DNA of 64,000 bases from Halobacteriales archaeon QH_7_66_36 (GTDB lineage Archaea; Halobacteriota; Halobacteria; Halobacteriales; Haloarculaceae): NCBI GenBank assembly GCA_003021175.1, contig PXQV01000012.1:179671-243670 (forward strand), given 5' to 3'. Below, piece by piece: positions 12,393-23,439 of this stretch (position 1 is its first letter; the number at the start of each line of letters is the position of its first letter). The translations under genes were made by a program, and so were the position numbers. Below the pieces are notes generated by a model. The model had not been told where the DNA came from. It searched no databases and saw nothing but the letters and a program-made list of their open reading frames with translations.

Positions 12393-12791
12393 ATGCAACG
12401 AAGAACGGTACTGGCAATTACCGCATCCGGACTCGGCATCCTCGCCGGTTGCGTGAGCGGTGGCCGGAGTGGGGCCGATGCTCCCGACCAGCTCTGTACG
12501 ATTGAAACCCCATCTAATTCGAATCCCCCAGTATCTACGAACACCGAGTCATTTCTGGAGACGTATCTATCCGACAAACCCCGTACTGAGATCGTGATTG
12601 GGGATGAACAGGCTCAGTGCGTAGATATCCCCGACATGCGCATCGAGAACGAAACGTCTGCCAGTCACTCTGTACCATCGCGGTCAAACGATCGCTACGG
12701 CTCGGGGACCTCATACTCGGAGGCGATGCAGCCCGCCACGTCGACGAGCCTGTTTGTGAATTCTGGGAGTTCTCTACCGGAGATAGGGTGA
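12393..12791 (+). pseudogene. Tat lipoprotein, 3'-truncated
   Basis: The ATG at 12393 opens a lipoprotein N-terminus: MQRRTVLAITASGLGILAGC, a twin-arginine signal with the lipobox LAGC at Cys20. A polar, Ser/Thr-rich mature part reads well to about residue 95 (IENETSASHS). After about 12690 the frame runs antisense through the end of the metallo-beta-lactamase gene and loses protein character. I read it as a gene cut at the boundary of the incoming operon. A TTAAG box at 12371-12375 is placed for a leaderless start. The function is unknown. Confidence 0.45.
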
Positions 12792-13447
12792 CCATGAATT
12801 GGCGCGACGTAGCTGATGTCGTACGTCTCGAAGATCGACGCCAGCGCTGCCTCCAGCTTCTCCGGGTCAACATAGCGGAGCCAGGCGAGGTTGTTGGCGT
12901 GGTACTGGTAGATAGTCTCACGAGGGACATTATCCTCGAACTGTCGAGAAGTGCGATCACAGTCGGCTGGTTCGTGGTAGCTTCCGAAACCGTCGGCCGT
13001 GAATAGCACACCCGAGCCGTGGTCGTAGATCCACGCCGTATGCGATCGGTCGGCCAGAGGCGGGTCAACGAAGCTGAACCGTCGATCGAGGACCGTCCGG
13101 CTGTCGCCGATAGTGCATCGCTGGGCGTCAGACAACCCCTGCAGTTCGGGCGACCCCGAGGAGGCGACGAGCTCAACATCGTCCCACCGATCGCGGATCG
13201 TCGAGATATTTCCGGCATGGGGGTAATCAGAATGGGACAGCACAATGGCCTCGGGACCGTCGCCACCTGTTGCTTGATCGATACGCTCGGCGATCGCCTC
13301 GCGGTGGTAGAACGACCCTGAGTCGATGAGAATCGCCGCCGTTTCTGTCTCGATTAGGTACACAGAGACGTGCTCGTGGGCGTCCTCGTGGGCGAAACAT
13401 TCGTTGATCCACCGAACGCCGCCAGTGAGTGGGATTGTTGCCGGCAT
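12695..13447 (-). CDS. Metallo-beta-lactamase-fold protein, variant motif (MBL-1)
   Basis: A 250-residue metallo-beta-lactamase-fold protein, closest in style to the flavodiiron-type (ODP) branch but without a flavodoxin domain. The usual HxHxDH motif reads HSDYPH (in LSHSDYPHAGN near residue 72): Asp replaces the second His/Glu and Pro replaces the Asp. The other ligands remain: His in DRSHTAWIY near 134, Asp in LFTADGFG near 150 and His in APIHGHP near 220. It is the last gene of the nine-gene operon, four bases after its paralogue. The substrate is unknown; hydrolase or redox activity are both possible. Confidence 0.85.
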   Translation of the reverse strand: MPATIPLTGGVRWINECFAHEDAHEHVSVYLIETETAAILIDSGSFYHREAIAERIDQATGGDGPEAIVLSHSDYPHAGNISTIRDRWDDVELVASSGSPELQGLSDAQRCTIGDSRTVLDRRFSFVDPPLADRSHTAWIYDHGSGVLFTADGFGSYHEPADCDRTSRQFEDNVPRETIYQYHANNLAWLRYVDPEKLEAALASIFETYDISYVAPIHGHPISGRELPEFTNRLVDVAGCIASEYEVPEP

Positions 13448-13450
13448 CGC

Positions 13451-14257
13451 TCACCCCAGCGTCCCAATCCGGTCTCGGCGCTCAATCTCCTCAACGACGC
13501 CTTTCATTCGAGTCATCTGCTCAGTCGCTTCTCTTCGGACGACGAGCCCATGGGCGGGTGCGAGCTGTTCCGGCTCGTGTGTGGCGATCAGCCGGTCGAT
13601 CTCGCGTTTCACTTTTGAGACATCGACGTACTGGTGCCAGAACAGCACCCGTCCGTGGAACTGGACCAGTCTGTCATCTCCCAGTGGCGCATCCAGTTCG
13701 TCGACGAACTGGAGCGCCTCTGATTCGCCGTGGGGGAACCCGAGCCAGTCGATTGGGAACAGCGTGTCGGTCGTCCGCTCACTCATCCACAGCGACACTG
13801 GTGCGTCCAGAAACGTCGCCTCGTGGAACGCGACCACATATCCTCCGAGGTCGATCTCATCGCCCTCACCGACTCGAAGCGCGTCGTCCAGCCGGTAGAG
13901 TTCGTGGTCGTCGCCGTACCGCGGCGCAACGAGCGTCGCATCGGGGTAGGCGTCGAGGATGGCGAGGGTGTTGCCTGCGTGGGGAACGTCCGGATGCGAG
14001 ACGACTAGGTAGTCCAGCCCATCACCGTCCAATAGCGCCTCCAATTCGTCGAGGATGTGGTCGGAGCCGGCCGGCGAGAGCGTATCCAACAGCAGCGACT
14101 CTTCCTCGCCACACAGGAGATATGCACACTGGGGGATGTATACCGCCTCGTCAGGATTGGCCCACGCCGGCGAACTCCCCTCGGCGGCGAACATCTCGCT
14201 GCGGTCAGGGCCGCCTTCGTAGATCCAGTAGAATCCCGGTTCGATCTCTCGAGCCAT
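13451..14257 (-). CDS. Metallo-beta-lactamase-fold protein, variant motif (MBL-2)
   Basis: A 268-residue paralogue of the adjacent gene, sharing the variant motif as HPDVPH (in VSHPDVPHAGN near residue 87). The Asp in LFPIDWLGF and the His in APAHGLV near 240 are kept, but the His of the third motif aligns with Val (DAPVSLWM against DRSHTAWI). One metal site is therefore probably altered. Its ATG abuts the stop of the M20 peptidase gene (14258) with no spacer. The pair could form a heterodimer in which one subunit is catalytically weaker; that is inference. Confidence 0.85.
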   Translation of the reverse strand: MAREIEPGFYWIYEGGPDRSEMFAAEGSSPAWANPDEAVYIPQCAYLLCGEEESLLLDTLSPAGSDHILDELEALLDGDGLDYLVVSHPDVPHAGNTLAILDAYPDATLVAPRYGDDHELYRLDDALRVGEGDEIDLGGYVVAFHEATFLDAPVSLWMSERTTDTLFPIDWLGFPHGESEALQFVDELDAPLGDDRLVQFHGRVLFWHQYVDVSKVKREIDRLIATHEPEQLAPAHGLVVRREATEQMTRMKGVVEEIERRDRIGTLG

Positions 14258-15619
14258 TCACTCATCCCCCGCGACCGTACTGTCGCTCCCGTAGGACCGC
14301 ATGAACGCAGCCGAGACCTCGATACCCTTGCGGAAGCATCCGACATCGATGTGCTCGTCGGGCGAGTGGTTCCCCTGGTCGGGGTTGGCGTAGGGGACGA
14401 CCAATACCGGTACGTCTAGATTCTCACGGAAGTGTGCCGCCGGGAGGCTCCCGCCGAGCAGCGGCATCTCGACCGGTTCGAGGTCCCAGACGTCCCGAAA
14501 GGCTTCGAGGATCACGTCGGCAGCGGGCGTGTCCAGCGGCGTCTTCATCGGTGGGAAGGTCCCCAGCTTCGTCACCTCGACATCGGAGGCGTGCTCGTGG
14601 AAATGAGCCTCGACGAGTTCGAAAATCTTGTCGGGATCCTGGTTGGGGACCAGCCGCATGTCCAGCTTCGCCGTCGCTTCGTTGGGAATAATTGTTTTCA
14701 TCCCCTCGCCGCCGTAGCCGCCGGTGATCCCGTTTATTGTCAGCGTGGGCTCCAGCAGCAGCCGCTCGTAGTAGGCCGTCTCTGTCGCGAACCGGTCGAG
14801 TCCCAGTTCCTCCTTGATCGCGCCTTCGTCTAGCGGAATCTCCGCGATCATTTCGCGGTCGGCCTCTGTTATCATCATGTCGTCGTAGAACCCTTCAATG
14901 GCCGCTTGATCCCCCTCGAAGGCTGTCGCGAGCAGCCCAACCAGCTCGTTAGCCGCGTTCGGGACGGGTCCACCGAAGTTGCCTGAATGAAGGTCGTCAG
15001 CGGCGGTACGGTGGTCCAGTTGTACCGAGAGGATACCCCTATTGCCGTAGATAAGTGTCGGGCGGCGTGAGCGGTGCATCGGGCCGTCGGCAACGTACAC
15101 CAAGTCGACATCGGAGAGTCGGTCGGGGTCATCGCCGAAGTAGTTGATGAGTCCCTTGCTGCCGCTCTCTTCGCCGCCCTCAATGAAGAGCTTCACGTTC
15201 GCCGTGACCTCTGCGCCAGCCGCGTCGAGCGCGTCCATCGCGAAGGCATGGGTCAGCAGCTGTCCCTTGTTGTCGCCGCTGCCCCGAGCGTAGATCGAGC
15301 CGTCCCGCACGGTCGGTTCGTAGGCTGGTGTTGTCCACTGATCGACATCGCCCGGCGGCTGAACGTCGTAGTGACCATAGAACAGCACGGTTGGCGCCGA
15401 CTCGTCGACGAGGCGCTCAGCGTACACCAGCGGGTAGCGGCTCGTCGGGAGCTGCTCAACCGTTTCGAAGCCGTGGTCGACGAGTGTCTCGACCAGCAGA
15501 TCCGCACACTCAGCCATTCCCTCGCCGGTCGCGCTCACACTAGGCTGTGACAGCAACTCGAACAACACCTCGCGGTAGTCTTCGAAGCGTTCTTCAACGA
15601 CATACTTGACGTCCGTCAT
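14258..15619 (-). CDS. M20-family metallopeptidase / amidohydrolase
   Basis: A 453-residue M20 peptidase of the dipeptidase/carboxypeptidase group. Co-catalytic metal and catalytic residues are in order: His and Asp in YGHYDVQPPGD near residue 83, the bridging Asp in YARGSGDNKGQL near 113, Glu-Glu in EGGEESGSKG near 148, Asp in VYVADGPM near 174 and a C-terminal His in NHSPDEHID near 425. The dimerisation (lid) domain lies between. Substrates of the family include dipeptides, N-acyl and N-carbamoyl amino acids. Its ATGA overlaps the creatininase-family stop at 15616-15619. Confidence 0.92.
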   Translation of the reverse strand: MTDVKYVVEERFEDYREVLFELLSQPSVSATGEGMAECADLLVETLVDHGFETVEQLPTSRYPLVYAERLVDESAPTVLFYGHYDVQPPGDVDQWTTPAYEPTVRDGSIYARGSGDNKGQLLTHAFAMDALDAAGAEVTANVKLFIEGGEESGSKGLINYFGDDPDRLSDVDLVYVADGPMHRSRRPTLIYGNRGILSVQLDHRTAADDLHSGNFGGPVPNAANELVGLLATAFEGDQAAIEGFYDDMMITEADREMIAEIPLDEGAIKEELGLDRFATETAYYERLLLEPTLTINGITGGYGGEGMKTIIPNEATAKLDMRLVPNQDPDKIFELVEAHFHEHASDVEVTKLGTFPPMKTPLDTPAADVILEAFRDVWDLEPVEMPLLGGSLPAAHFRENLDVPVLVVPYANPDQGNHSPDEHIDVGCFRKGIEVSAAFMRSYGSDSTVAGDE

Positions 15620-16416
15620 TCGGCGTCACCTCTCTCAGCCGTGTTGTTGCCACTGACAGCCCGCGCTTCACGGACGCGCTCGGCAAAGTCGGAGACGAGC
15701 TGCTTGGTGATGACCTCGCCACGCGCCTCGGTAGCCAGCGTCGGGTCGCCCATATGCCCGAGGTCGGAGTAGGCTTCCAGCCCGTCGGCCATCAGCGCAG
15801 ACCCCGAGATGCCGCCTTGGTAGCCGGGCGTCAACTCTTCGGGCAGGACGAGGTCGGGCCGAAGGTGCCAGACCGACGCCGTTACGGCGGCACCGCCGTG
15901 GCCCCGGCCCTCCGGAGGAACGTCGAGTTCGTCCAGGCTATCCATCAGCGACCCGATGAGTAGGTCCTTGTCCAGCAGCGAGATGAGATCGACGTCATCG
16001 CCGAGTTCTTTTGCCAGCGACGGCAGCACGGCGTTCATCGCCGGAAAGTTGCCGCCGTGTAGTGAGAAGATGACGAGTTCGTCGAATCCGTGAGCGGCGA
16101 GGCTGTTGCAGTAGTCTTCCAACACAGCCATCAGCGTCTCCGGTCGGTAGCTGATGGTACCGGAAAAGCCCATATGGTGCTCCGAGCAGCCCGGCCGGAT
16201 CACCGGTGCGACTAAAGCATTGCCCAGCTCCTCGGCCAGTTCACCCCCAACCGCCTCTGCCCAGGCGGCGTCCTTTAGGAGGCCTAGGTGGGGGCCATGT
16301 TGCTCGACTGACCCGGCAGGGATTAGTGCCGTCCGGACCCCCCCGGTGAGGGCGTCGTCTATCTCCATCCAGGTGAGTTCTTCCAGGTGCACCGATCGCA
16401 GATTCGTTGTGGTCAT
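15616..16416 (-). CDS. Creatininase-family hydrolase
   Basis: A 266-residue creatininase/MftE-family amidohydrolase. Family landmarks are PAGSVEQHGPHL near residue 38 (metal-binding Glu and His), an Asp ten residues on (LLKDAAWA) and SLHGGNFPAMN near 118. The fourth region normally reads like HAGExETS and supplies His and Glu ligands; here it reads GHGGAAVTASVW, keeping the His but not the Glu. Family members hydrolyse cyclic or linear amides (creatinine, FAPy intermediates) or cleave peptide tails. It overlaps the M20 gene and lies 36 bases after the ABC ATPase. Confidence 0.88.
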   Translation of the reverse strand: MTTTNLRSVHLEELTWMEIDDALTGGVRTALIPAGSVEQHGPHLGLLKDAAWAEAVGGELAEELGNALVAPVIRPGCSEHHMGFSGTISYRPETLMAVLEDYCNSLAAHGFDELVIFSLHGGNFPAMNAVLPSLAKELGDDVDLISLLDKDLLIGSLMDSLDELDVPPEGRGHGGAAVTASVWHLRPDLVLPEELTPGYQGGISGSALMADGLEAYSDLGHMGDPTLATEARGEVITKQLVSDFAERVREARAVSGNNTAERGDAE

Positions 16417-16452
16417 CGTTGATATTGTGATTGTGTATCTCAGTTATCGGTC

Positions 16453-17448
16453 TCAGCTCTCGTACAGCACACACCGCGTGTAATGGTCGTCACTGGTTTC
16501 GAACATCGGCGGCTCGCCGTCGCGACAACGGGGCATGACCTCTGGACAACGGTTGGCGAAGCGGCAGCCAGTCGTCTCAAAGGTCGGGTCGGGGACCTCG
16601 CCACCGATGCTGGCACCATCCCGACGGTTGTCTGGGTCGACCTCCGGTACCGACGCGACCAGCGCCTTCGTGTAGGGGTGTTTTGGGTTGTGGATGATCT
16701 CCTCGGTCGGACCAACCTCTACCAGTTTGCCGAGGTACATGATGCCAATACGGTCGCACATATACTTCAGCAGGGAGAGGTCGTGACTGATGTATAGCGC
16801 CGCCAAGTTGAGTTCGCGCTGGAGGCGCTTGAACAGGTCTAGCACGCTCGCCCGAATGCTCACGTCGAGCATGCTGGCGGGCTCGTCTGCCAGCAGGAAC
16901 GAGGGATTGAGCACGATCGCGCGAGCGATAGCGACCCGCTGGCGCTCACCGCCAGAGAGGTCGCCGGGGTATTCGCCGGCGTAGGCGCTGGGCGGCTCCA
17001 GCCCGACGTTGTCCAGTGTCCGGTAGACCCGCTCGGTTCGCTCCTCCTCGGTGCCGATGTCGTGGATATCCAGCGGTTCGGCAACCCAGTCATAGACCGA
17101 GAAACGCGGGTTCAGCGACTCGAATGGGTCTTGGTAGATGATCTGGGCCTCGCGCCGGAACGACTTCAGCTCGCTGCCCGAGAGGTCAGTGAGCTGGCGG
17201 CCATCAAAGTAGATGTCCCCCCCAGTCGGCTCCAGAAGGCGGATGGCAGTCTTACCGGCCGTCGTCTTGCCGCAGCCGCTCTCGCCGGCTAGCCCGAACG
17301 ATTCGCTGGGCTCGATCTCGAAGGAAACGCCGTCGACAGCCCGCACGTACTGTTGGTCGGCGTTCCAGTTCAGCAGTTTCGACGCCAGCCCCGCGTTTAT
17401 CGGAAAGTACTTTTCGAGACTCTCGACACGGAGCTTCGGTTCAGTCAT
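16453..17448 (-). CDS. Dipeptide/oligopeptide ABC transporter ATPase (DppF/OppF type)
   Basis: A 331-residue nucleotide-binding subunit of a peptide-type ABC importer. It carries Walker A GESGCGKTTAG near residue 54, the Q-loop YQDPFESLNP, signature LSGGERQRVAIARA near 165, Walker B LLADEPASMLD, H-loop ISHDLS and the C-terminal oligopeptide extension HPYTKALVASVP followed by a Cys-rich CRFANRCPEVMPRC. It overlaps the DppD-type ATPase stop by eight bases, and with it forms the usual ATPase heterodimer. Confidence 0.95.
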   Translation of the reverse strand: MTEPKLRVESLEKYFPINAGLASKLLNWNADQQYVRAVDGVSFEIEPSESFGLAGESGCGKTTAGKTAIRLLEPTGGDIYFDGRQLTDLSGSELKSFRREAQIIYQDPFESLNPRFSVYDWVAEPLDIHDIGTEEERTERVYRTLDNVGLEPPSAYAGEYPGDLSGGERQRVAIARAIVLNPSFLLADEPASMLDVSIRASVLDLFKRLQRELNLAALYISHDLSLLKYMCDRIGIMYLGKLVEVGPTEEIIHNPKHPYTKALVASVPEVDPDNRRDGASIGGEVPDPTFETTGCRFANRCPEVMPRCRDGEPPMFETSDDHYTRCVLYES

Positions 17449-18496
17449 TGCTGTACCCCTCCTGGCCGGCGGCAGCGTCTTTGGGCCGCTCCTCAGTCCA
17501 GGCCTCCTTTTTATTTGCTTCGGGGCGTAGCTCCTCGGCCTCGTCAGCGCGGTGGCACTCTACGACGTGACCCTCGGCGACCTCCCGCGGCTGAGGAGTC
17601 TTCTCGTAGCACTCTTCTTCAGCGAACGGACAGCGATCGGCAAACCGACAGCCCTCCTCGGGGTTGACGAGCTCCGGCGGTGACCCTGGGATCGAGATGA
17701 GTTCCTGGTCGCCCTCTGCAATGCTGGGGAAGGCGTTTCGGAGCCCCATCGTGTAGGGATGATGGGGTTCGTTGATCACGGTCTCCGTGTCGGTGTACTC
17801 GACGATCCGGCCGCCGTAGACGACGGCGATCTCGTCGCATGTCTCCGAGACGACGGAGATATCGTGGGTGATCATGATCATCGCGCTGTTGATCTCGGCC
17901 TGCAGATCCTTGATCCGCTCAAGGATTTGATCCTGGATGATGACGTCTAGCGCGGTAGTAGGCTCGTCCGCCAGCAGGATCGGGGGATCGAGCGCCAGTG
18001 CTATCGCGATGGCCGCCCGCTGTTTCATTCCCCCGGAGAACTGGTGGGGGTAGTCCGTGACCCGCTCGGGATCTAAGTCGACGAACTCGAACAGCTCCTG
18101 TGCGCGCTCTCTGGCTTCCGCTTTCGATGTGTCGGGCCGGTGGGCGCGGATCACCTCGACGATCTGCTCCTCGATTGTGTACACCGGGTCGAAAGCGTTC
18201 ATCGCGCTTTGAGGGATCAACGACACGTCATTCCAACGGTATTTCTGGAGCTCCTTCTCGGACAACTCCGTCAGGTTGACGCCGTCATAGACGATCGATC
18301 CGTCTACGACTTCGCCGTTCTCCGGCAGGATGCGGTTGATCGACTCGGCGATGGTCGTCTTGCCGCTGCCACTCTCGCCGACCAGCCCGAGTGTCTCGTT
18401 TCTCGACAGTGATAACGAGACGCCGTCGACAGCGTGGACGTCGCCGGTCTCGGTATGGTAGTACGTTTTCAGAGTCTCGATTTCGAGTAGTGTCAT
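17441..18496 (-). CDS. Dipeptide/oligopeptide ABC transporter ATPase (DppD/OppD type)
   Basis: A 351-residue partner ATPase. It shows Walker A GESGSGKTTIAE near residue 36, signature FSGGMKQRAAIAIAL near 158, Walker B ILLADEPTTALDV, H-loop ITHDISV, and the C-terminal HPYTMGLRNAFPSI region with the Cys set CRFADRCPFAEEEC. About 40 acidic, Lys-containing residues trail the family domain. It follows the permease gene by seven bases and overlaps the DppF-type gene. Confidence 0.95.
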   Translation of the reverse strand: MTLLEIETLKTYYHTETGDVHAVDGVSLSLSRNETLGLVGESGSGKTTIAESINRILPENGEVVDGSIVYDGVNLTELSEKELQKYRWNDVSLIPQSAMNAFDPVYTIEEQIVEVIRAHRPDTSKAEARERAQELFEFVDLDPERVTDYPHQFSGGMKQRAAIAIALALDPPILLADEPTTALDVIIQDQILERIKDLQAEINSAMIMITHDISVVSETCDEIAVVYGGRIVEYTDTETVINEPHHPYTMGLRNAFPSIAEGDQELISIPGSPPELVNPEEGCRFADRCPFAEEECYEKTPQPREVAEGHVVECHRADEAEELRPEANKKEAWTEERPKDAAAGQEGYSND

Positions 18497-18503
18497 GTAT
18501 TTG

Positions 18504-19445
18504 CTATTCGCGCTCTCGCAGTTCGGGGTTGCTTACTTTCTCGTAGGTGCGACCGATGAGGAACACCGAGATGACGAGCAGGTTGATTGATAGGCCCGGC
18601 GGGATAACCCACCACCACGCCGTCCGTATGGCGTTTGCCGTGTAGGCGGTGAACAGCATCTTGCCCCACGACACCGACAGCGGGTCGCCAAAGCCCAGGA
18701 ACGAGACGCTCGCCTCGGCGATAACAGCCCAGCCCACCGAAAACGCGCCATAGAGGAACACCAGCGGCAGGACGTTCGGGAGGATGTGGGTATACAGCAC
18801 CCGGACGTCGCTCCCGCCGGCAGCACGGGCGGCCTCGATGTAAGGCCGCTCCTTGATGGTGAGCACCTGCGATCGGATGACCCGGGCCGTTGAGCGCCAC
18901 TGCACCAGCGCGATCGCGAGGATGACGTTGAGCAGTGATGGGCCTAGAATGACCACCAGCACGATGACGAACGGCAGGAACGGAACTCCATAGATGATGT
19001 CAGTTAGCCGCATCAGGATGTCGTCAGTCCAGCCGCCGAAGTAGCCGCTTATCAGCCCCATGTTCGTCCCGATGAACACCGACATGAACGCCCCCAGCGA
19101 GCCGACGATCAACGCAATCCGGGTGCCGATCAACACCTGCGAGAGGACATCACGTCCCAGTCGGGTCGTTCCTAGGAGATGTTCGGTGGAGGGGGCCTCC
19201 ATACGTTTGATCTCGCCGTCGTCGGTACGGAGCTTCTCCTGGGCATCGTAAGGCGCGAGGAGTGGCGCGAACAGCCCGACGAACAAGAATATTGCGAGGA
19301 GCAGCAGGCCGATCTGCCCGAGCCTCTCGCCGCGGAAGATCTCCCGCTGGGCCGCCAAGGTTTGTCGGAGTCGAGACCTCCCGCCATAGTGCTGCGAGAG
19401 GATGTCGTACTCGTCTTCCGTCGAGGTGCGATTCTGAGTGCTCAT
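18504..19445 (-). CDS. Dipeptide/oligopeptide ABC transporter permease (DppC/OppC type)
   Basis: A 313-residue permease. A cytoplasmic N-terminus of about 50 residues precedes helix 1 (LGQIGLLLLAIFLFVGLFAP). A periplasmic loop with TEHLLGTTRLGRDVLSQVL is the OppC-type N-terminal signature. The core transporter helices follow, with the ATPase-coupling EAA-like loop EAARAAGGSDVRVLYTHILPN near residue 205. Its start overlaps the DppB-type stop by four bases. Confidence 0.94.
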   Translation of the reverse strand: MSTQNRTSTEDEYDILSQHYGGRSRLRQTLAAQREIFRGERLGQIGLLLLAIFLFVGLFAPLLAPYDAQEKLRTDDGEIKRMEAPSTEHLLGTTRLGRDVLSQVLIGTRIALIVGSLGAFMSVFIGTNMGLISGYFGGWTDDILMRLTDIIYGVPFLPFVIVLVVILGPSLLNVILAIALVQWRSTARVIRSQVLTIKERPYIEAARAAGGSDVRVLYTHILPNVLPLVFLYGAFSVGWAVIAEASVSFLGFGDPLSVSWGKMLFTAYTANAIRTAWWWVIPPGLSINLLVISVFLIGRTYEKVSNPELRERE

Positions 19446-20419
19446 TCGTAGGTCACCCTCGGATCGAAGTGGGCGTACAGCAGGTCGGCCGCGAAGTTCA
19501 ACAGGATGACGACGCTCCCCATCAGGAAGAACGCCGCCATCGCCACCGGGTAGTCGTTGTAGCTAACCGCGGTCACCATTGCCCGTCCCATCCCCGGCCA
19601 GTTGAACACGACCTCGATGAGCAGCTGGCCGCCGATGGCCTTGCCCGCGACGAGCGCTATGATCGTCACGATCGGTAGCAACGAGTTTCGGACCGCGTGC
19701 TTGTACAGAATCGTGTACTGCGACAGCCCCTCGGCTTTCTTCATCTTGATAAAGTCTTCATTGAGTATTTCTAGCATTGTGTTCCGCATTAGCAGCGTCG
19801 GTGTCGCCATGTAGTAGATCGCGCCCGTCAACATCGGGAGCGCGACATGGTACAGGAAGTCCACCGACACGAACTTGTCAACGAAGCCGTTATAGTCGGC
19901 ACCGACCGACCGGATACCACCCGCGGGGAACCACTTCAGCCAGAAGACGAACACCATTATCAGCACGATGCCCGTCCAGAACGTCGGCGATGACCGCGCA
20001 ACCAGCGTCGCCAGCAGTCCGACGATCTCTCGGTCCGTGCCGCGCCACCACGCCAGTAACGCGCCGCCGAGGATGCCGATCATGTACGCTAGCGTGATTG
20101 CACCTAACATCAGGAAGATGGTGTTCCAGAATTTGGTGACGATAATGCCCGCCACCGGCTCGCGGTACTGGAAGGAGGTTCCGAAGTTACCCTGCAGCAC
20201 CTGGAAAATGTAGTCGACGTACTGGATATGTAGCGGCTCGTTGAGCCCGAGGTTCTCGATGACCTCTTTGCGGGCTTCGCCGCTCAATCCCTGAGCGACA
20301 AACATCGTGGTGGGGTCGCCGGGGACGATCCTGAACAGCAGGAACAGGATCGTCAGGAACGCCCAGTAGGTGACGGCGAGCTGGCCGATGCGCCTGACGA
20401 CGAACTCTTTCATTCCCAT
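19442..20419 (-). CDS. Dipeptide/oligopeptide ABC transporter permease (DppB/OppB type)
   Basis: A 325-residue permease with the OppB layout. Helix 1 at the N-terminus (IGQLAVTYWAFLTILFLLFRIVPGDP) is followed by a conserved loop with LGLNEPLHIQYVDYIFQVLQGNFG. Five more helices follow, and the EAA-like coupling loop MKKAEGLSQYTILYKHAVRNSLLP lies near residue 230. It lies 54 bases after the substrate-binding protein stop and overlaps the DppC-type gene. Confidence 0.95.
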   Translation of the reverse strand: MGMKEFVVRRIGQLAVTYWAFLTILFLLFRIVPGDPTTMFVAQGLSGEARKEVIENLGLNEPLHIQYVDYIFQVLQGNFGTSFQYREPVAGIIVTKFWNTIFLMLGAITLAYMIGILGGALLAWWRGTDREIVGLLATLVARSSPTFWTGIVLIMVFVFWLKWFPAGGIRSVGADYNGFVDKFVSVDFLYHVALPMLTGAIYYMATPTLLMRNTMLEILNEDFIKMKKAEGLSQYTILYKHAVRNSLLPIVTIIALVAGKAIGGQLLIEVVFNWPGMGRAMVTAVSYNDYPVAMAAFFLMGSVVILLNFAADLLYAHFDPRVTYE

Positions 20420-20473
20420 GGTCGGGGAGGTGCGGGGGGATGGTCGGCGTATTGGACGGTCCTGATGTTCATA

Positions 20474-22189
20474 TCACTCGGGGTACAGAAGGTTCCTCTC
20501 GTCGTCCCAGGTGTAGCCCGCGTCCTCAAGTTCCGCGCGGGCGGCATCCAGATCGAAGTTGAACGACTCGGTGTCGGGGTTGTGCCAGGTGGTGTTGACT
20601 TCAGCGATCTGGGACTGGGCGACGGTCCCCCGACCGTTCAACAGCGTGTCGACGATATCCTGCTTAGGGATCGCGTACGCTAGCGCACGACGGAACGCGA
20701 CGTCATTGAAGGGCGCCTCGTTGCACTTATAGTTGATGTGGTAGAACCCGTGGCTGTCCTTGATGCTCAGCGAGAGGTAGTCCATACTCTCTAGGCGGTC
20801 CTGGGTGTTCGGCTGAGGGACCCACCCGATCATGTCGATCTGCTCATTCTCGATCTGGCGGACCAGCGTCTGCATGCTCGATCCGGGGATCTTCAGCAGT
20901 TCGTCGACGTTCGGCGGGTCGAAGTGATCGTCGTTGGCGACGAGGGTCAGCTGCTCCTCCCGGCGCCAGCTCTCGAATTTGAATGGCCCGCTACCGATCG
21001 CCTCGGAGTTCGGCCAGTCGGTCGCCTGCTCGACATCGACGTTTTCCGGCACCTCCTTCCAGATATGCTCGGGTAGTAGGTAGATGGTACCTAGGGTGTT
21101 GGCGACGAACGGTGCGTACGGCTCCGTGAGGTTAAATCGGAGCGTCCGGTCGTCAACGATCTCCGTGGAATCGATGGGTTCGGCCCGACCGGAGAGTTTC
21201 GGCGAGTGGTCCTCTATGTAGTCGAAGGTGAACTTCACGTCCTCGATGGTGAGGTCCTCGCCGTCGTGCCAGGTCATCCCACTACGGATCGTGATATCGA
21301 AGGTCGTGTCGTCGACCTGTTCCATCTTCTCGGCCGCCCATTTCTTTGGCGTACCGTCTCTAGAGATGCGGAACAGCCGGTCGTAGATCAGCCGCATCGT
21401 CTGGGCGTCGTGGGTCGCTTGGACGTTCAGCGGATTCATATTGTTCACGTCCGAGGGGTAGCCCAACCGGACCGTCGAGACGCCTTCCTTCGGCTCGACG
21501 CCGATGAGGTTCCAGAAGCTCATCAACCCCTCGCCCATCATCGGCTTGGGATTCTCGAAGCGGTTAGAGTTGTACGGCATCACCTGCTGTTTGTTCGCGA
21601 TCGGCGTGTGGGGCTGGTCCCGCATCGCGATCTCCTGGCACTTGTAGACGGCCTCCTTGCGCTCCTCGATGTCGTAGACCTGCTGCTGCTGCTCTGCGAA
21701 CTGGTCGTACTCATCGTTGGTGTAGTTGACAAAGTTGTACTTCCCCTCTTCGGCCTGCGAAGAGTGGAAGACGCCGTAACAGAAGTGGTTCGGGTCGATG
21801 CGTTCGGCTCGCCCGGCCCAGTTCAGCGTGTACGAGTCGAATTCCTGACCGACTAGCGCTTGGTCGACGATCTGGTTCCAGGCCATCGGGTTCTCCTGAA
21901 CTGAGACCCCGAGTTCCCGCCAGTTCTCCGCGATCATCTGGCCGAACTCGAATCTGACTGGATCGTAGTCCGACGTCGTCGTGATGAGTTCTATCTCGCG
22001 AACCTGCTCGCCCGGCTGGACGGTCGCCTCCTCGTTGCTGCCGTCACCGCCATCGCTGCCGTCACTGCCTTCGCCGCCATCACCGCTGTCGTCCGAACAG
22101 CCCGCAAGACCGACGAGAATGCCCGTCCCGGCGGACGCTCCTGCTGTCCGTAACACCTTTCTCCGTGTCTGTTTGTCACTATGTGGCAT
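20474..22189 (-). CDS. Substrate-binding lipoprotein of peptide ABC importer, apparently circularly permuted
   Basis: A 571-residue family-5 solute-binding protein. The N-terminus has a twin-arginine motif (QTRRKVL), a hydrophobic core and the lipobox GLAGC at Cys31, then a Gly/Asp/Ser linker. The domain order is unusual. Residues 63-235 read like the normal C-terminal lobe (GQMIAENWRELGVSVQENP, RIDPNHF, ENPKPMMGEG). Residues 237-571 read like the normal N-terminal lobe (LGYPSDVNNMNPL, GMTWHDGEDLTIEDVKFTFD, FRRALAYAIPKQDIVD) and stop where the C-lobe usually begins. An in-frame ATG at 22201 is an alternative start. It heads the operon. Confidence 0.88.
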   Translation of the reverse strand: MPHSDKQTRRKVLRTAGASAGTGILVGLAGCSDDSGDGGEGSDGSDGGDGSNEEATVQPGEQVREIELITTTSDYDPVRFEFGQMIAENWRELGVSVQENPMAWNQIVDQALVGQEFDSYTLNWAGRAERIDPNHFCYGVFHSSQAEEGKYNFVNYTNDEYDQFAEQQQQVYDIEERKEAVYKCQEIAMRDQPHTPIANKQQVMPYNSNRFENPKPMMGEGLMSFWNLIGVEPKEGVSTVRLGYPSDVNNMNPLNVQATHDAQTMRLIYDRLFRISRDGTPKKWAAEKMEQVDDTTFDITIRSGMTWHDGEDLTIEDVKFTFDYIEDHSPKLSGRAEPIDSTEIVDDRTLRFNLTEPYAPFVANTLGTIYLLPEHIWKEVPENVDVEQATDWPNSEAIGSGPFKFESWRREEQLTLVANDDHFDPPNVDELLKIPGSSMQTLVRQIENEQIDMIGWVPQPNTQDRLESMDYLSLSIKDSHGFYHINYKCNEAPFNDVAFRRALAYAIPKQDIVDTLLNGRGTVAQSQIAEVNTTWHNPDTESFNFDLDAARAELEDAGYTWDDERNLLYPE

Positions 22190-22235
22190 ACAGATACCCA
22201 TGTCCGTTCAAATTAATAAAAGTAACTCATAAATT

Positions 22236-22245
22236 AATTTATATA
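22236..22245 (-). promoter_or_regulatory. Probable TATA box of the ABC/hydrolase operon
   Basis: Read on the minus strand this is TATATAAATT, centred about 40 bases before the possible ATG at 22201 and 52 before that at 22189. It sits in an AT-rich 190-base gap that contrasts with the GC-rich surroundings. It fits an archaeal TATA box, with transcription starting near 22213-22216 and a short leader. Confidence 0.55.
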
Positions 22246-22381
22246 GCGGTATGAAAGGATCGATTTTGGGATATGGGGGTAAAAGTAGATTATATTACCC
22301 GAGGTACAGAACTCTATTAAGAGAATAGTTGAACTTGACGAGCTCTCAATACCCTTTAATTATAGTTTTACGGGGACGAGG

Positions 22382-22894
22382 TCACTCTTCGATGTCCTCG
22401 TCGATGGCGATGTAGTCGGTGCTCAGGTAACTGCTCATATCTCGGTTGCGGTCGGTGACAACGATGTGCTCGACTGTGTCGACGGTGTCGTGCTCCCGAA
22501 TCCTCGTCAGCGTTCGCTTGACGGCCTCGACATCCGGGAGGCTCCCGACCGCGTAGACGTCGTAGGTGCCGAGCCCGGCCGAGACGTGCCAGAGCGGCAG
22601 CCTCTGGAGGAACTCAAAGATGTCGTCCCCGGCGCCGGGGGCGTCCGTTGCGGTGACCGCCAGCCGGACCAGCTCCCAGTCGGTTTCTCGTGGGTCCAGC
22701 AGGAAGAAGACGGTCGTCACCTCTAGGATGTTGTCCACGCGATAACGGACACCCTCAGTGCTCATATCGTGGCCAGCTGCCTCTAAATCCTCAGCAATCT
22801 CCGAGTACGGTTTTCTCGGGTCCTCCGCGAGGATGCGGAGGATTAGACTGTCGATCTCATCGAATGTTGGCCACCTCTCGCCGTTTTCTTCCAT
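22382..22894 (-). CDS. Lrp/AsnC-family transcriptional regulator
   Basis: A 170-residue Lrp/AsnC regulator. The N-terminal winged helix reads FDEIDSLILRILAEDPRKPY and continues through SEIAEDLEAAGHDMSTEGVRYRVDNI. An effector-binding RAM-like half follows, with PLWHVSAGLGTYDVYAVGSLPD and a VEHIVVTDRN strand. The ATG at 22894 (MEENGERW) is preferred; 19 upstream codons are Arg-rich and unlike the family. It lies on the same strand, 180 bases upstream of the operon promoter, so it is the best candidate for the operon's regulator. Confidence 0.88.
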   Translation of the reverse strand: MEENGERWPTFDEIDSLILRILAEDPRKPYSEIAEDLEAAGHDMSTEGVRYRVDNILEVTTVFFLLDPRETDWELVRLAVTATDAPGAGDDIFEFLQRLPLWHVSAGLGTYDVYAVGSLPDVEAVKRTLTRIREHDTVDTVEHIVVTDRNRDMSSYLSTDYIAIDEDIEE

Positions 22895-23439
22895 ACTGCT
22901 GCCAAGTCGCTTCGGCACTAAACGATACCGCCGACGAGTGACGCGTCGCAAGGGCTCTCCCTCATGGAATGACCCACTCTTGTCCTACTCAATAAGTGAA
23001 ATTTAGTCCGGAGTTCAGATGGATCCTACCCCATACTGTTGTGCGATTGTTAACGAGTAATGTGTTAAATAACAGAAATCATAAACACCGGTCTGCGTTG
23101 GTTACCCAGTCCGGTTGATGATTGTTCGAGAGTGGCCCCGTAGCGAGCGGTGCCGCATCTCTGGCACTCCGAAATCGATTGTCCCGTCTACGTCTCGTCA
23201 GGGATCGATTCGTGGGTCTCGAACTGGTGATCGGTCGCTCGGCCGCAGTCCTCACAGTCGAGCCGGGCCATCGTCGGCACCGGCGACGGCCGGCTCCGCG
23301 CCGTTCGAGGTGAGGTGGTCCACGGTGGCCCGCCCTTCGCCACAGCGCCGTAGAACGTGGTCGACTCGACGACAAGGTGGACGATGCCGAGAACCGCCGT
23401 CTCCATCGACTCGTCCGCCCGAGTGGCACCATCACCGGG
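22895..23439. other. Mostly gene-free, AT-rich boundary region
   Basis: Bases 22980-23100 are markedly AT-rich and include TGTTAAATAACAGAAATCAT, unlike the flanking core DNA. The region holds the upstream side of the AsnC gene and the edge of the operon block. The only coding-like trace is a minus-strand micro-frame at 23188-23271, listed separately. I see no att site or transposase. Confidence 0.4.
23188..23271 (-). CDS. Possible 27-residue zinc-knuckle fragment
   Basis: An ATG at 23271 opens a 27-residue frame (MARLDCEDCGRATDHQFETH, then ESIPDET). The CxxCGRxTxHQ start resembles the N-terminal zinc knuckle of small haloarchaeal zinc-ribbon proteins, but the second CxxC is absent. It may be a remnant of a longer zinc-ribbon gene or chance. 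Low confidence. Confidence 0.25.
   Translation of the reverse strand: MARLDCEDCGRATDHQFETHESIPDET

Follow-up and report, generated by a model that had tools for sequence, protein, structure and literature searches.

The closest described systems to the locus analysed here are the DppABCDF and OppABCDF importers, in which a family-5 (cluster C) substrate-binding protein (SBP) works with two permeases and two ATPases (E. coli DppABCDF structure, PMC12136057; AppA, PDB 1xoc). For natural circular permutation of an ATP-binding cassette (ABC) importer SBP, the reference is TpMglB-2 (Tp0684), whose crystal structure showed a permuted cluster B glucose-binding protein and which was presented as founder of the subclass 'cluster Bc' (PMC4990184). 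The present locus is a nine-gene operon on the minus strand (12695-22201) of a 64,000-nucleotide stretch from Halobacteriales archaeon QH_7_66_36 (contig PXQV01000012.1, positions 179,671 to 243,670), referred to below as the window. It has the family-5 SBP, permeases and ATPases of the Dpp and Opp systems, and the solved structures nearest to its SBP include AppA, NikZ and DppA. Unlike these systems, it encodes an SBP that is permuted by sequence comparison, with its anchored end elsewhere in the fold, and adds genes for a creatininase-family enzyme, an M20 peptidase and two metallo-beta-lactamase (MBL) fold proteins.

The sections of the SBP gene were assigned as follows.

20474-22201, minus strand: circularly permuted cluster-C (SBP_bac_5) substrate-binding lipoprotein of 575 aa, from profile and structure comparisons
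22097-22201, minus strand: SBP residues 1-35, a twin-arginine-type signal (TRRKVL) with the lipobox LAGC35 at its end, from the sequence
21551-22006, minus strand: SBP residues 66-217, matching the canonical C-terminal part (AppA about 359-503; PF00496 positions 279-366) in profile comparisons
21488-21550, minus strand: SBP residues 218-238, the probable junction of former C-terminus and former N-terminus, placed between the matches
20492-21487, minus strand: SBP residues 239-570, matching the canonical N-terminal part (AppA about 17-357; PF00496 positions 2-286) in profile and structure comparisons

A preliminary description of the window had placed the SBP start at the second methionine (22189); the open reading frame (ORF) itself is kept, beginning at 22201. 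Its assignment as a peptide-type SBP also stands, the permuted order having been missed. The protein matched PF00496 at 229.1 bits (cut-off 32.4). No single colinear match in canonical order to this family was obtained, and the counterpart of AppA 359-503 preceded that of AppA 17-357. Searched in the window's own genome, PF00496 split the SBP in two, with family positions 279-366 upstream of 2-286. In comparisons with PDB sequences, SBP 254-566 corresponded to AppA 37-345 and SBP 75-216 to AppA 365-503. A profile of 26 homologues gave the same swapped order against PDB chains (AppA domain E-values 4e-60 and 2.9e-14). By these sequence comparisons, the SBP was shown to be circularly permuted, the C-terminal section of an OppA/DppA-type protein coming first and the N-terminal section second. 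On the same matches, the canonical protein is present once and whole, cut near canonical residue 350-360 and rejoined through SBP residues 218-238, and the SBP would belong to cluster C only as a permuted class. R13, R14, G34 and C35 of the signal were invariant across the 26 homologues.

An AlphaFold2 model of the SBP (predicted local distance difference test, pLDDT, 85; predicted template modelling score 0.81) showed the two-lobed periplasmic-binding fold. Sequential structure alignment placed SBP 237-575 on AppA 17-357 (Z 25.9, root-mean-square deviation 3.6, 333 residues aligned) and left out the first section, as a permutation requires. Folded alone, the first section matched NikZ and further family-5 proteins in their C-terminal ranges (top Z 9.0 and 8.7). 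The predicted fold thus appears to be kept despite the permutation.

The window stems from a draft genome in 18 contigs, and misassembly or an artefact of profile matching could in principle produce a swapped order. Separate profiles for the two SBP sections were read in every long open frame of each locus. The permuted order was found, in single open frames, in 30 of 30 haloarchaeal loci and 80 of 80 loci from the genome collection (110/110), and the same two profiles read 26 canonical proteins, two of them from the window's genome, in canonical order. The artefact explanation was rejected on the 110 relatives and is regarded as extremely improbable. By record title, the permuted loci belonged to Natrialbaceae, other haloarchaea, Halomonadaceae, Rhodobacteraceae, Hyphomicrobiales, Spirochaetes, Trueperaceae, Clostridia, Chloroflexi and others. 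The proteins of this group, termed class A, are annotated plainly as 'ABC transporter substrate-binding protein'. A further 16 haloarchaeal proteins were fetched because their family match ended at profile position 260-262 or 283-287; both sections could be read in 12, and all 12 were permuted.

A tree was built on the canonical N-terminal section. Forty class-A proteins formed one side of a branch with a Shimodaira-Hasegawa-like approximate likelihood ratio (SH-aLRT) support of 89, so that their grouping was not firmly shown. Six proteins with a break at PF00496 position about 258-262 (class B) fell among canonical proteins. They include a second permuted family-5 SBP of the window's own genome (G000:C15:22717-23577; L094; L237:9749-11629). 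The Pfam match ended at 258-259 in class B and at 284-285 in class A, and in two of the six proteins the N-terminal part matched the canonical C-terminal region from near residue 335-345, which is some 20-25 residues before the class-A break. A single group of all permuted proteins was rejected in the approximately unbiased (AU) test (p 0.0044), and with it one origin for all of them; a single group of the six class-B proteins, L094 included, was not rejected (p 0.08). Permuted forms thus appear, from the tree, to have arisen at least twice.

It is highly probable, in our judgement, that permuted cluster-C SBPs are a large undescribed class, of which class A (break at about 285) is common to haloarchaea and at least five bacterial phyla and has its own permease set, and class B (break at about 258) arose separately at least once in haloarchaea. 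Since anchor and N-terminus lie at a different point of the fold in these proteins, docking on the permeases would not depend on the location of the chain ends.

TpMglB-2 shares with the window SBP the natural permutation, and it retained ligand binding (PMC4990184). It has a cluster B (type I) sugar-binding fold with a permuted N lobe, whereas the top sequence and structure matches of the window SBP are family-5 cluster C proteins, which argues for a separate permutation event. The permuted part of TpMglB-2 kept almost no sequence similarity (PMC4990184), while both sections of the window SBP clearly match canonical relatives. For TpMglB-2, a connection between permutation and membrane tethering had been suggested. 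Such a connection is unlikely to be general, as a crude pattern detected a lipobox-like motif in just 30 of the 80 genome-collection loci; several Gram-negative proteins had plain signal peptides, and the haloarchaeal forms had lipoboxes. A literature search for permuted oligopeptide- or dipeptide-binding proteins, with most subscription papers outside its reach, returned no description, just TpMglB-2 in the other fold cluster (PMC4990184). The window SBP is thus apparently, as judged from sequence, a member of an unrecognised permuted class of cluster-C SBPs.

In addition, an insert of about 300 residues was seen in the OppC-type permease that accompanies the permuted SBP at about 25 bacterial class-A loci (L153:11619-13361 and about 24 others, e.g. 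L116-L155 and L171), between the first transmembrane segment and the transport domain. Pfam and PDB comparisons of this insert gave no match.

Downstream of the SBP gene, and in the region upstream of it, the following features were assigned.

22382-22951, minus strand: AsnC/Lrp-type regulator, upstream of the operon and co-directional, from profile matches and synteny comparison
22202-22381, minus strand: AT-rich spacer (34% GC), the presumed promoter region, from composition only
19442-20419, minus strand: OppB/DppB-type permease, from profile matches
18504-19445, minus strand: OppC/DppC-type permease, from profile matches
17441-18496, minus strand: OppD/DppD-type ATPase, from profile matches
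16453-17448, minus strand: OppF/DppF-type ATPase, from profile matches
15616-16416, minus strand: creatininase-family amidohydrolase, from profile matches and residue comparison
14258-15619, minus strand: M20 metallopeptidase, from profile matches and closest relatives
13451-14257, minus strand: MBL-2, flavodiiron/ODP-like beta-lactamase-fold protein (H88-x-D90-x-P92-H93, D151, D170, H236), from profile and motif alignment
12695-13447, minus strand: MBL-1, paralogue of MBL-2 (H72-x-D74-x-P76-H77, D133, D152, H218), from profile and motif alignment

No gap between the nine ORFs exceeds 54 bases, and several ORFs overlap. Their order (SBP, two permeases, two ATPases, creatininase-family enzyme, M20 peptidase, MBL-2, MBL-1) and their location on one strand agree with the preliminary description in ORF coordinates, and every family was confirmed by Pfam. 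The AT-rich upstream spacer and the neighbouring AsnC regulator were likewise recovered, by composition and Pfam respectively. Two BPD_transp_1 permeases and two oligo_HPY ATPases beside a family-5 SBP identify the importer as Opp/Dpp-type.

For conservation analysis, 391 haloarchaeal genomes were searched with MBL-2, and 27 genomes matched, the window's own included. All nine genes were present in the same order in 3 of 27 other loci fetched, at 55-69% identity and in genomes of three families: G390 (Natronococcus sp. A-GB7, L033/L097), G133 (L035) and G237 (L039). A metagenome contig of a Natrialbaceae archaeon carried the first seven genes and then ended. On a plasmid of Halalkalicoccus jeotgali, the first seven genes (importer, creatininase, M20) were followed by a mere fragment of MBL-2. 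The proposed linkage of importer and enzymes as a conserved unit is upheld by the three further genomes, and the possibility, named beforehand as refuting it, that the linkage occurs in this genome only was not borne out. The operon is a conserved unit and more than a chance cluster; its families are known, while the cluster as such is uncharacterised. In five congeners of the window's genome, no close copy of the creatininase gene was present, and the operon has 61% GC against 68-70% in its surroundings; for these reasons, it was likely acquired horizontally. The AsnC gene, co-directional with the operon here, was oriented divergently at the syntenic loci seen in other haloarchaea, which suggests a local inversion.

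The creatininase-family enzyme shares with creatininase (TIGR04448) and MftE (TIGR03964) the PF02633 family and the E-x-H, D, H metal residues. It keeps E38, H40, D49 and H120, which we take, after the residue roles in creatininase, to be the metal residues. E122 of creatininase is replaced by Gly. The nearly universal Glu of the family motif HxGxxET is replaced by Val in each of the five operon copies and was kept in other family members of the same genome. Scores were below both cut-offs (86.5 bits against 235 for TIGR04448; 121.1 bits against 172 for MftE). Because E122 and the HxGxxET Glu are not kept, the enzyme is classed, by sequence comparison, as a distinct amidohydrolase. Creatinine degradation was rejected on the TIGR04448 score and the missing E122, and none of the nine genes is a creatinase or sarcosine gene; a mycofactocin role was rejected on the MftE score. 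A literature search on creatininase in haloarchaea, from which most subscription papers were excluded, found nothing relevant. The M20 protein shows the conserved H-x-D, D, E-E and H residues along with PF01546 and M20_dimer domains, and is closest to the archaeal carboxypeptidase Sso-CP2 and to carnosinase/CNDP-type dipeptidases.

Both MBL proteins matched the flavodiiron/ODP branch; this kinship and the altered metal motif described below had escaped the preliminary description. ODP/flavodiiron beta-lactamase domains (PF19583, cut-off 27.2 bits) are their best-defined relatives, MBL-1 scoring 40.1 and MBL-2 25.4 bits, and the best PDB matches of MBL-2 were flavodiiron NO/O2 reductases. Ligand roles were assigned after those of flavodiiron proteins. 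In an alignment of 57 sequences, the metal positions His, Asp/Glu, His, Asp/Glu and His were kept, as in ODP/flavodiiron domains (H, D/E, H, D, H), except that the first Asp/Glu position held another residue in five MBL-1 rows. In contrast to the HxExDH motif of these domains, all 57 sequences had Pro in place of the motif Asp (or Asn, in four MBL-2 rows) and Asp in place of one His ligand. The proteins also differ from flavodiiron proteins in having no flavodoxin domain (250 and 268 aa; Pfam). The HxHxDH motif of classical MBL hydrolases is absent, the corresponding sequences being HPDVPH and HSDYPH, and the classical-hydrolase reading was rejected on this metal motif. MBL-1 adjoined MBL-2 in 27 of 27 other loci, and 24 of these lay outside this operon in varied catabolic contexts. 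In view of the altered metal site and of the many loci elsewhere, the pair is treated as an accessory module, possibly a heterodimer. The earlier proposal that all four enzymes are hydrolases acting in series is upheld in part only.

The MBL pair might even be an independent redox- or oxygen-related module that is co-transcribed by happenstance and stands outside the pathway. The ODP score of MBL-1 lies above the cut-off and that of MBL-2 just below, the pair is met again next to luciferase-like monooxygenases, acyl-CoA dehydrogenases and Tct transporters, and in H. jeotgali MBL-2 has decayed while importer, creatininase and M20 genes remain. Against this, the operon closes with the pair, in overlapping or adjacent genes, in four genomes that span three families, and the two ligand positions that differ from flavodiiron proteins leave oxygen chemistry unassured. 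We give this independent role a substantial chance, somewhat short of an even one.

At six of the MBL-pair loci, an importer that has a class-A permuted protein was also close by. In L038, L041, L043, L044, L047 and L048 (six haloarchaea), the MBL pair was seen near a divergent class-A importer and near a gene that, judged only by the beginning of its sequence, seems to encode an ADP-forming acyl-CoA synthetase; at least three of these loci had an enolase-superfamily (MR/MLE) enzyme. On a plasmid of Paracoccus seriniphilus (L191, 7216-8822), two neighbouring bacterial MBL-fold genes, of which one matches MBL-2, were located beside a betaine/proline-type ABC importer.

Neighbours of class-A importers elsewhere bear on the substrate. 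In Ketogulonicigenium and Roseomonas, HyuA/HyuB hydantoinase-oxoprolinase, M20 and M28 genes adjoined related permuted importers, in likeness to HyuA/HyuB/HyuC hydantoin utilisation. Other class-A importers adjoined a creatininase gene or an Asp/Glu/hydantoin racemase gene, the latter in some cases accompanied by an amidohydrolase. The window operon differs from the Hyu systems in having no HyuA or HyuB, the creatininase-family enzyme being a candidate for the ring-opening position. These neighbours support cyclic amides, N-modified amino acids or small peptides as the probable substrate class. They fit the initial idea that one compound, a cyclic amide or modified peptide, is taken up and degraded; cyclic dipeptides in particular received no direct support.

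As the explanation that best covers the whole, we favour, with some reserve, an acquired uptake-and-degradation operon with a permuted SBP, a creatininase-family enzyme, an M20 enzyme and a non-obligatory MBL step. A lipoprotein exported by the twin-arginine pathway would bind, outside the cell, a small solute resembling a peptide or amide and pass it on to the two-permease, two-ATPase Opp/Dpp-type importer. Inside the cell, the creatininase-family amidohydrolase would open or cleave a (probably cyclic) amide, and the M20 dipeptidase/carboxypeptidase-like enzyme would then hydrolyse its product. The paired MBL proteins may add a further step, not an obligatory one, of possibly redox or non-classical character. 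Through the permutation, the lipid anchor and the new termini would come to lie at a point that is internal in an ordinary OppA/DppA (canonical residue about 350-360).

Several points weigh against this account. Folded alone, the first SBP section had a moderate pLDDT of 68 and a large overall root-mean-square deviation. The creatininase-family enzyme is without residues of true creatininase, and its reaction is uncertain. Enzyme neighbours of this kind are absent from roughly three quarters of the longer class-A loci (e.g. in Halomonadaceae, Rhodobacteraceae and Spirochaetes), so that the importer class as a whole fixes no single substrate. Canonical peptide importers are also often found near M20, M28 and hydantoinase genes.

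The operon could instead serve ordinary di- or oligopeptide scavenging, in which linear peptides are bound, the M20 enzyme is a dipeptidase, the other enzymes trim modified residues and nothing cyclic is involved. The transporter subunits match Opp/Dpp models, the closest M20 relatives are carboxypeptidases and dipeptidases, and M28 peptidases adjoin related importers. E133 of the SBP (E or D in 23 of 26 homologues) lies, in a position judged by eye, about where DppA has its dipeptide-pairing Asp. Linear peptides, on the other hand, require neither the creatininase-family enzyme nor the hydantoinases and hydantoin racemase of related loci. Scavenging is plausible, yet we hold it to be distinctly on the less probable side.

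Natural circular permutations of SBPs are rare in the searchable literature, which holds one cluster B structure (PMC4990184). Alignments that assume colinearity lose about a quarter of the permuted protein. The operon offers a defined haloarchaeal uptake-and-hydrolysis pathway for assay. If the class proposed here is real, with at least two origins and breakpoints about 25 residues apart, it would make directly testable the effect that new termini and a shifted membrane anchor have on capture and delivery.

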